Source: Bordetella petrii (GTDB taxonomy: Bacteria; Pseudomonadota; Gammaproteobacteria; Burkholderiales; Burkholderiaceae_B). From it: a DNA stretch of 64,000 nt. The translations under genes were made by a program, and so were the position numbers. Below, piece after piece: positions 44,886-46,939 of the stretch. The notes beneath the pieces are model-generated. The model was not told where the DNA came from and did no database searches. It saw only the letters and a program-made list of their open reading frames with translations. The stretch lies in NCBI GenBank assembly GCA_017745595.1, contig WMBV01000022.1, forward strand, positions 1 to 64,000, written 5' to 3'. Position 1 is the stretch's first letter. Every line of letters begins with the position of its first letter.

Positions 44886-46028
44886 ATGGGCGATGCCAGC
44901 AGCGTGTATCCCGCCGAGCTCAGCGTGCACGTGCTGCGCTATCCGGTCCAGCAGCCGGTGCGCACCTCGTTCGGCATCATGCACGACCGCCCGGCGGTCT
45001 TCGTGCGCGTGCAAGACCGCGATGGCGCGCATGGCTGGGGCGAGATCTGGTGCAACTTCCCGGCCTGCGGGGCCGAGCACCGCGCGCGCCTGGTGGAAAC
45101 CGTGCTGCGGCCGCTGCTGCTGGGGCGCGCCTATGACGGGCCCGCGGCGGCCTGGGCCCATCTCACCGCGGCCACCGAGGTGCTGGCGCTGCAGGCCGGC
45201 GAGCCCGGGCCCCTGGCGCAGGCCATTGCCGGCGTCGACCTGGCGTTGTGGGACTTGTGCGCCCGCCGCGCGGGGCAGCCGCTGTGGGCGTACCTGGGTG
45301 GCGCCAGCGACCGCGTCCGGGTCTACGCCAGCGGCATCAATCCCGACGACCCCGGGCAGGTGGTGCAGCAGAAGCACCGCGAAGGCTACCGCGCCTTCAA
45401 GCTGAAGCTGGGCTTCGGCCACGAGCGCGACCTGCGCAATCTGCGGCAGGTGCGCCAGCTGCTGGGGCCCGGCGTGCCGCTGATGGCCGACGCCAACCAG
45501 GGCTGGAACGCGGCCGACGCGGCCACCATGGCGGCCGCCATGGGTGAACTGGATATTGCCTGGCTGGAAGAGCCGCTGCGCGCCGACCAGCCCCTGGCGC
45601 AGTGGCAGGCCCTGGCGCGCCAGTCGCCGGTGCCCCTGGCCGCCGGCGAGAACTGCCTGGGCGCCGACGCCTTCCGCGCCGTCATCGATGCGGGTTTCCT
45701 GCGGGTGGTACAGCCCGACCTGGCCAAGTGGGGCGGCATCTCGGGCTGCCTGCCGGTGATACGCGCGGTGCGCGCGGCCGGCTTGCGCTATTGCCCGCAT
45801 TACCTGGGCGCCGGCGTCGGCCTGATGGCCTCGGCGCACCTGCTGGCCGCCGTCGACGGCATGCGGCATGGCGGCCTGCTCGAGATCGATGCCAACGACA
45901 ACCCGCTGCGCACCCTGCTCAGCGCGCCGCTGCAGCAGCTGGAAGAGGGCGTGGCCTGCCTGGGCCACGCGCCGGGCATCGGGGTAGAGCCCGACCTGGC
46001 CGCGTTGCGGGCGCAATGCGCGGGCTGA
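44886..46028 (+). CDS. Enolase-superfamily enzyme (mandelate racemase / muconate lactonizing type)
   Basis: A 380-residue MR/MLE subgroup enzyme. The N-terminal cap covers about 1-125. The barrel shows GYRAFKLKLGFG (KxK catalytic Lys pair) near 165-176, PLMADANQGWNAADA (first metal Asp), IAWLEEPLRADQPL (Glu) and PLAAGENCLGADAF (Glu). VVQPDLAKWGGISG holds the Lys of the second side and CPHYLGAGVGLMAS follows. It forms an enolate by proton abstraction from an acid substrate; epimerase, dehydratase and lactonising roles are all possible. ATG 44886 has GAGG upstream; GTG 44874 overlapping the GntR stop is an alternative. Confidence 0.88.
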   Translation: MGDASSVYPAELSVHVLRYPVQQPVRTSFGIMHDRPAVFVRVQDRDGAHGWGEIWCNFPACGAEHRARLVETVLRPLLLGRAYDGPAAAWAHLTAATEVLALQAGEPGPLAQAIAGVDLALWDLCARRAGQPLWAYLGGASDRVRVYASGINPDDPGQVVQQKHREGYRAFKLKLGFGHERDLRNLRQVRQLLGPGVPLMADANQGWNAADAATMAAAMGELDIAWLEEPLRADQPLAQWQALARQSPVPLAAGENCLGADAFRAVIDAGFLRVVQPDLAKWGGISGCLPVIRAVRAAGLRYCPHYLGAGVGLMASAHLLAAVDGMRHGGLLEIDANDNPLRTLLSAPLQQLEEGVACLGHAPGIGVEPDLAALRAQCAG

Positions 46029-46047
46029 GGCCCGGCCAAGTCCCGGC

Positions 46048-46280
46048 CAGGTGTCTGACTCCGCAGGTGTCAGTGCTTCACCGCGGCTGCGCGACCCGCC
46101 CGGAACGAAAGATGCGGCTCGATCGGGGACGCCGTGGAGCCGGCTTTGCCGGTCCGCCGGCGTCGCCCCCTTGAGGGGGAAGCGCGCAGCGCTTCGGGGG
46201 TGGGACTTTCACTTCAGACACCGAAGCATGGCAAGACCGTCTCAACAGTACGATGTCTGACACCTGCGGAGTCAGACACC
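46048..46280. repeat. REPIN-like element R10, split by a 140-bp insertion
   Basis: Left arm begins at 46048 with centre T-CC-GCA-GG-T, then breaks after GTCAG. It resumes at 46214 with TCAGACACCGAAGCATGG, a spacer, and a right arm with A-CC-TGC-GG-A, the exact complement. Removing 46074-46217 leaves an ordinary element. Confidence 0.9.
46074..46213. repeat. 140-bp insertion with internal palindromes, flanked by TCAG duplication
   Basis: The insert sits between two TCAG copies (46070-46073 and 46214-46217), so it looks like a transposed or captured element with a 4-bp target duplication. It contains CCGGC-TTTG-CCGG, CCCCC-TTGA-GGGGG and AGCGC-GCAG-CGCT palindromes and no ORF. GC-rich segments like CCCCCTTGAGGGGGAAGC recur in betaproteobacterial intergenic DNA, from memory only. 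No clear terminal inverted repeat is seen. Confidence 0.75.
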
Positions 46281-46462
46281 CGCCCAGACCTGCCCAGTGC
46301 AGCCACCCACCGTCCATCCGATCCTTCAAGCGCTGGTGACAATGCGCATCCAGGTGCTACGCCGCCGGGGCGCGGGGCCCCGCATTCCACATAATTTGTC
46401 GCATTGTCGGCGCGGCCGGCCCGCTAGGATGGTTGCGGTTTTCTCAGCCTCGGGAGCACGCA

Positions 46463-46939
46463 ATGAAATTCGATCATCGGCATGTCATCGGCGCGGCCGC
46501 CATTGTCGCGGCGCAATGCATTGCGGCGGGCGCGCACGCGCAGCTGCTCGACGCGGTCAAGGGCCAGCTGGGCGGCGGCGCGCAGCAGGGCGCCGCCGCC
46601 GGCGCGGCCGGCAGCGCCGCGCAGGGCCTGGGGGGCGGGCTGTCGTTGTCGTCGCTCAGCGCCGGCAGCGCCGGCAACGCGGCCGGCGTGCTGGAGTTCT
46701 GCATGAAGAACAACTACCTGAACGGCGGCGATGCCCAGTCGGTGAAAGACCAACTGATGGGCAAGATCTCCGGCGGATCGGAAAAGGCCGAGTCCGATCC
46801 CGGCTACATGGACGGCGCGCAGGGCATCCTGAAGGGCAGCGACGGCAAGTCGGTAGACCTGAGCGGCGGTGGCCTGAAGGAAGAAATCACCCGCAAGGCC
46901 TGCGACCAGGTGCTGGCGCAGGGCAAGTCATTCCTGTAG
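46463..46939 (+). CDS. DUF2501 (YjjA-like) exported protein
   Basis: A 158-residue protein with a signal peptide of about 26 residues (IVAAQCIAAGAHA, then QLLDAVK). A Gly/Ala-rich region follows. The C-terminal DUF2501 core is GNAAGVLEFCMKNNYLNGGD, SVKDQLMGKISG and GLKEEITRKACDQVLAQGKS, with two conserved Cys that may form a disulfide in the periplasm. Function of the family is unknown. ATG 46463 has GGGAG upstream. Confidence 0.85.
   Translation: MKFDHRHVIGAAAIVAAQCIAAGAHAQLLDAVKGQLGGGAQQGAAAGAAGSAAQGLGGGLSLSSLSAGSAGNAAGVLEFCMKNNYLNGGDAQSVKDQLMGKISGGSEKAESDPGYMDGAQGILKGSDGKSVDLSGGGLKEEITRKACDQVLAQGKSFL

Follow-up and report, generated by a model that had tools for sequence, protein, structure and literature searches.

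One finding stands at the centre of this analysis: a repeated non-coding element of 140 bp with shared outer ends is inserted exactly behind the tetranucleotide TCAG at several sites, one of them inside a REPIN of the window, that is, the whole 64,000-nt stretch of Bordetella petrii DNA analysed here. We read it, with a probability of roughly 0.6, as a TCAG-specific non-autonomous element whose hairpin module is retained as 3' UTR. Two results go beyond the preliminary description of the locus, namely the fit of the element's inner part to the published repeat BRE and its position behind stop codons.

In the window, the 140 bp (TGCTTCACCG...GACTTTCACT) split the first REP unit of a REPIN at 46050-46280 (Table 1). 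The REP arm ends in ...GGTGTCAG, the REPIN continues with TCAGACACCG... on the far side, and a TCAG borders the insert at either end, which confirms the break where it had been placed before. The host qualifies as a REPIN through its paired inverted REP units and a RAYT in the genome. Its arms (46045-46073 and 46257-46285, 29 nt each) are 93% complementary, the DNA folding of 46045-46285 stands at z = -7.78 against shuffles, the window contains 26 instances of the arm pattern versus 0.53 expected (up to two mismatches), and a 74-base piece of this REPIN has at least 57 matches in its own genome. Removal of the insert and one TCAG (144 bp) from the interrupted unit of 231 bp gives, as had been predicted, a normal REPIN of 87 bp, inside the range of 82-93 bp spanned by 20 intact REPINs that were found by script with spacers of 15-60 nt permitted. 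The order proposed earlier, with the REPIN first and the element second, is well supported, because the restored 87-bp REPIN has a parallel at the locus L006, where the element has broken up a REPIN within the second REP and the REPIN of Bordetella sp. BOR01 at an apparently orthologous place (L194) has that REP whole.

Table 1. Positions of the inserted element, its parts and the interrupted REPIN in the window
Feature	Position	Strand	Basis
Interrupted REPIN, left part (up to GGTGTCAG in the first REP unit)	46050..46073	+	Sequence, arm complementarity, arm-pattern count, REPIN lengths
Left-flank TCAG	46070..46073	+	Sequence; TCAG here in 13/16 copies judged complete
Insert, complete element copy, 140 bp	46074..46213	+	Sequence, genome matches, shared ends
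Left module TG[CT]TTCACCGCG...	46074..46124	+	Matches extend into it in 5/61 genomes, all from one genus, with 14 candidates scored in each
Conserved hairpin core	46125..46204	- (strand on which the core follows stop codons elsewhere)	Aligned in 66 copies; fits BRE description
Palindrome A, long stem	46128..46164	.	Palindrome/hairpin analysis
Palindrome B, CCCCC-TTGA-GGGGG	46166..46179	.	Palindrome/hairpin analysis; other copies have REPIN or 78-bp inserts close by
Palindrome C, AAGCGC-GCA-GCGCTT	46180..46194	.	Hairpin analysis
Right end ACTTTCACT	46205..46213	+	Comparison of copies
TCAG, right flank or element's right end	46214..46217	+	Sequence; TCAG in 15/16 copies judged complete
Remainder of interrupted REPIN	46214..46280	+	Sequence, arm complementarity, genome matches, REPIN lengths

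A REPIN without the insert was looked for at the window locus, as the preliminary description had advised, and none was found among the relatives: BOR01, G001 and G002 have no REPIN there, and neither the window copy nor the copy L016 has a filled/empty pair among the relatives compared. A protein neighbouring the locus is 90% identical to one of BOR01. The orthologous intergenic region of G002 contains a different long palindromic repeat, GTCCGGGCAAGTGGTGTCGGCGC...GCGCCGACACCACTTGCCCGGAC (L123, G002:C1:198661-198957), and palindromic repeats resembling it appear in L158 and L195. A scan of 45900-46500 found no promoters or intrinsic terminators, and Rfam gave two sub-threshold hits, that of the insert scoring 12.6 bits against a cut-off of 44.

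The insert holds the three palindromes described before. Its supposed lack of an ORF was right in substance; short ORFs run across it, and we take them as chance. The RNA fold of the insert alone is unexceptional (z = -1.28; 17/200 shuffles equally good).

The search for other genomic copies, also proposed earlier, gave at least 48 matches of the insert in its own genome at E ≤ 0.001, at no fewer than 40 places more than 400 bp apart, and the insert is not unique. Since 40 of 154 candidates were scored, these counts are lower bounds, as are all copy counts from our genome searches, in which limited numbers of candidates are scored. Among 61 genomes, with 14 candidates scored in each, 12 (own included) match the insert. 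Matches that reach its left end (query start at 15 or lower) occur in five genomes (G000, G001, G002, G003 and G008), every one of them in the window's genus; in the other seven, again with 14 candidates scored per genome, the core or core parts alone are matched. The core was matched in 6/6 genomes of the genus of G013 and in 0/10 of that of G009. Plasmid records gave four matches (two in Variovorax, one each in Diaphorobacter and Methylibium), covering 40-45% of the query, and phage records gave no match to the insert.

Sixteen copies were judged complete by eye, namely L001, L002, L004, L006, L007, L008, L009, L013, L016, L017 and L019 of the own genome and L220, L229, L238, L240 and L243 from relatives; L010, with CGTATG on its left and CGTCAG on its right, is not among them, and two more, L221 and L244, could perhaps be added. 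In these 16 the left tetramer is TCAG in 13, TCAA in two and TCGG in one, with GTG frequently 5' of the left TCAG, and the right tetramer is TCAG in 15 and TCGG in one. Being nearly invariant there, TCAG may be both a required target and an element-borne end. Eight further copies carry TCAG or TCAA on the left and lack the right TCAG (L011, L023, L222, L225, L241, L242, L252 and L253), L010 lacks the left one, and by pattern 51/79 copies have no right TCAG. The preliminary description had made transposition with a TCAG duplication hinge on common boundaries: these are shared in the copies judged complete and differ in many copies that consist of the core only.

The ends can also be followed independently of the core. 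In the own genome the left-end pattern has 19 matches versus two for a reversed control (up to two mismatches), and seven of the 19 are absent from the genome match list of the insert. All seven have, by eye, a right-end-like sequence within about 200 bp (exact TTTCACTTCAG in two), and what lies between is a REPIN, a REP, a decayed core or nothing; read in this way, the ends of the element are kept and its middle is replaceable. In L161 (G002:C1:2149400-2150295), the orthologue of the L007 site, both ends are present and the core is mostly gone, either through an internal deletion or as a smaller form of the element.

We compared the flanks of 25 copies, 14 from the own genome with four relatives and 11 from relatives with five genomes, the right-flank block of L006 being empty because of a contig end. 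For 9/25 copies the site is uninterrupted, with a single TCAG, in one or more relatives. The cleanest is L243, where BOR01 has TCAG-element-TCAG and 3/3 relatives have one TCAG within closely similar flanks. At L006 BOR01 has the single-TCAG empty site with an intact REP, and at L007 three relatives have such a site; the same is true of 2/2 relatives at L013, 3/4 at L220, at least 2/4 at L240, 1/2 at L019, and 1/4 at both L009 and L229. The remaining relatives at these nine sites show a sequence other than TCAG, cannot be aligned or hold a remnant of the element, some relatives lacking TCAG at the aligned place at L009, L019, L220, L229 and L240. At three sites relatives have CTAG, namely L004 (three relatives), L017 (3/4) and L002 (1/3, another having TCAG). 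On the gene's strand this is a TAG where the own genome has TGA, which leaves two readings, an earlier change of the codon or arrival of the TCA with the element. The other 13 comparisons gave no clear result because the intergenic DNA has diverged or one end of the copy has been lost. L238 has a REP half on its left and the end of the next gene on its right, the rest of the REPIN being missing. In the complete copies the tetranucleotide at the left target and the right end is fixed, and nine copies have exact empty sites; the exceptions are L002, L004, L010, L017 and the eight copies without the right TCAG.

The earlier proposal of a MITE-like element with a 4-bp TCAG duplication has partial support. 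The element is repeated, non-coding, palindrome-rich and mobile, as the term implies, but terminal inverted repeats of the MITE type (about 15-30 bp) are absent, with nothing beyond AGTG/CACT at its ends. TCAG does stand on both sides, and the nine empty sites have it once; a duplication is nevertheless not established, given the near-invariance of TCAG, the CTAG sites, the eight copies without a right TCAG and L010 without a left one. A classical MITE, the relic of a DDE-type insertion sequence with a 4-bp target duplication and a preference for TCAG, would accommodate the paired and single TCAGs, and the one-sided changes to TCAA and TCGG resemble a decayed duplication. It is, however, at odds not only with the ends and with the CTAG in relatives at three sites, but also with the 16 complete copies, among which no flank pair has a different common 4-mer, and with the seven extra left ends, whose right-end remnant within about 200 bp leaves no room for a transposase (more diverged ends would escape the pattern). 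We regard a classical MITE as rather unlikely.

A second class of elements offers a parallel. Non-autonomous elements of the IS200/IS605 type, for example palindrome-associated transposable elements, have hairpins near their ends, no long inverted repeats, and a tetranucleotide that is fixed both next to the left end and at the right end. Our element appears to resemble them: its TCAG hardly varies on the left flank or at the right end, it lacks inverted repeats, and of its near-end hairpins the right one (46180-46194) is clear and the left one weak in the window copy. Unlike those systems, it came with no autonomous partner or enzyme: no partner was seen among the 19 left-end matches in the own genome (up to two mismatches), and no mobilising enzyme was identified, the sole Y1 gene found in that genome being the RAYT.

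On the favoured reading of a TCAG-specific non-autonomous element, its form in petrii-like Bordetella would be a hairpin core flanked by the ends TG[CT]TTCACC (left) and GGACTTTCACT (right). Insertion would take place directly behind TCAG, leaving TCAG on both sides, and the target in the window would have been the TCAG in the REP arm of the REPIN. An enzyme acting in trans may recognise the ends in folded single-stranded form and take TCAG for its target, in the manner of IS200/IS605-type (HUH, Y1) transposition.

Could the RAYT of the own genome move both the REPINs and the element? It is the only Y1 transposase found there (L041, G000:C36:41863-42195; NCBIfam REP_Tyr_transpos, 86.4 bits against a cut-off of 80), several REPINs of the window's family border its gene, and the element often sits in REP arms, a REP half forming the right flank in 8/80 copies. 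The ends of the element are not REPs, however, and the REPINs themselves follow a different rule, C and A preceding their ends in 31 and 33 of 39 flanks (CA before GGTGTC), with no preference for TCAG. For that reason the RAYT is a weaker candidate, and we hold a shared RAYT to be quite improbable. The REPIN/RAYT system, as presented by Bertels and Rainey (2011, PMC3116915), concerns palindromic mobile DNA that is non-autonomous and presumably moved in trans, and in this respect the insert is similar; it differs in that it does not consist of two inverted REPs, and in that the REPINs here show no TCAG preference (for REP classes, see PMC3733652).

The reverse of the order found in the window also occurs. 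In L332 and L333 (G000:C4:109593 and G000:C44:165414) a REPIN lies in the middle of the element, whose outer ends are still there, and with the window this means that the element and REPINs nest in each other. The inner junctions of these two composites, in which the ends of the 140-bp element surround a REPIN, are alike, and the composite itself may therefore have moved. In L310 a REPIN is joined to an apparent core fragment. Several copies, from at least two genomes, contain yet another repeat, about 78 bp long and with the palindrome GGGAACAGTCCTTGAGGACTGTTCCC (and variants), in the core beside the CCCCC-TTGA-GGGGG hairpin (L013, L016, L018, L023, L037, L038, L040, L253 and L257).

We turn now to the core. 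Its alignment, made without L237, L239 and L259, comprises 66 copies and 89 columns with a mean identity of 85%, and three hairpins fit it, 96.8% of cells being paired. Covariation is slight: five pairs are changed on both sides (shuffled mean 1.0; 0/500 shuffles reach five), while the covariation score is 0.035 versus 0.030 for a slid control, most pairs hardly vary and the covariation term of RNAalifold is almost nil.

The inner 80-85 bp or so, i.e., the core, is probably BRE, the Beta-proteobacterial repeat element of about 90 bp named by Hot et al. (2011, PMC3110155), the identification being made on the description by length, tandem order and hosts. The passages on BRE in that paper describe a tandem repeat, variable in number, of Bordetella and Comamonadaceae, with mobility regarded as possible and function not known. 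They give a length of 75-91 bp, with an example of 85 bp by coordinates (B. pertussis 3605317-3605401), and an intergenic location with some overlap of gene ends (PMC3110155). The likeness lies in the tandem core matches of 78-86 bp in G013 and in the partial matches on replicons of Variovorax, Diaphorobacter and Methylibium; by contrast, outer ends, a TCAG target, empty sites and a rule of placement at stop codons do not figure in those passages (PMC3110155). Among open-access full texts, the full name of BRE occurs in Hot et al. (2011) only, and no description of the 140-bp form was recognised in the literature, judged mostly on titles and abstract openings. In G013 the core occurs in tandem, five copies in one array and four in another (e.g., C1:4301558-4302156 and C1:3180375-3180717). 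Copies next to lexA in classical Bordetella would be a further mark of BRE. The gene lexA was found in three genomes, the nearest of the listed core matches lying about 10-14 kb off in G016 and G013, which may not be classical Bordetella.

That the element might be Bor-2 is only a guess, the comparison being by description. In Petrillo et al. (2008, PMC2267715), Bor-1 and Bor-2 are intergenic families, Bor-2 being an intergenic family of B. bronchiseptica with a 167-bp model and 17 members, six of full length.

The position of the core relative to genes was unexpected. A copy was counted as stop-proximal when the right edge of the core lay -15 to 25 nt from the stop of an inward-pointing, mechanically found ORF of at least 120 codons. 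Of 92 HMM rows, 80 were used (11 lacked the right end of the core and one an anchor), with L016 counted twice and orthologous copies in different genomes counted separately, so that rows are not independent. Overall 64/80 copies are stop-proximal. Outside REPs the figure for the own genome and four relatives is 62/72, all in one orientation and at distances of 0-19 nt, as against 0-13 of 71-72 for shifted anchors (-300 to -150 and 150 to 400 nt) and 9/72 for the left edge. The own genome alone gives 26/32 (shifted 0-4, left 4) and the four relatives 36/40 (shifted 0-9, left 5). A rough replicate, rough because it includes places already counted and inner tandem copies, found 39/67 rows stop-proximal at further loci (left edge 9, shifted 1-6). 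The window copy is not stop-proximal and sits in its REPIN behind a gene ending at 46028.

The stop codons differ with the right TCAG. Without it, 46/51 copies are stop-proximal (26 TGA, 12 TAA, 8 TAG), and with it 17/28, all at TGA (p = 0.003). Of the end-complete copies 9/15 are bound to stops, versus 54/64 of the others (p = 0.067), and a lesser tie to stops in the former was not upheld.

Under the favoured TCAG-specific insertion, copies landing behind stop codons would have been retained because their transcribed hairpins would act at the 3' end of the mRNA; alternatively, a TGA in the context CTGA may simply be a harmless target. Adjacency to all three stop types weighs against the favoured reading, as TCAG-specific insertion alone leaves it unexplained. 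The idea of CTGA as a target fails for the TAA and TAG cases, and the core-only copies therefore need functional selection or an older insertion rule.

A wider proposal, possible though doubtful, would make the whole a mobile 3' UTR with fixed ends and a replaceable middle, which inserts at TCAG, supplies many unrelated genes with hairpin 3' ends and nests mutually with REPINs. As TCAG is CTGA on the other strand, TGA stop codons would here be ready-made, harmless targets. An immobile element, propagated as 3'-UTR sequence through conversion and loss, with the TCAGs as points of short-homology deletion, is very improbable: the 62/72 stop-adjacent copies with TGA, TAA and TAG and the remnants in G002 and G008 at some compared sites would suit it, but the same ends recur at unrelated places, all compared relatives are empty at L243 and L013, and the insertion sites include a coding region (L009), a REP arm (L006) and a place upstream of a gene (L229).

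Hairpin repeats close to stop codons have a precedent in E. coli, where PMC12306157 reports REPs within 15 nt of stop codons (446/4,072; 260/496 as cited there) with a proposed effect on translation. The present element belongs to another sequence family, and here the 62/72 copies outside REPs lie within 19 nt. Its placement suggests that a mobile repeat is being retained to provide mRNA 3' ends, and if so, the mobility of small repeats would be linked to gene expression. Moreover, the mobility of BRE was only suggested in 2011; should the core be BRE, a testable insertion rule with exact ends now follows from the empty sites.

One further copy deserves mention. L009 (G000:C23:36477-36618) is an in-frame insertion in the N-terminal part of a lipoprotein-like gene; no stop interrupts the reading frame anywhere in the element, and the BOR01 counterpart of this gene (L166) is uninterrupted and without the element. 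The protein may be akin to a secretion-system lipoprotein.
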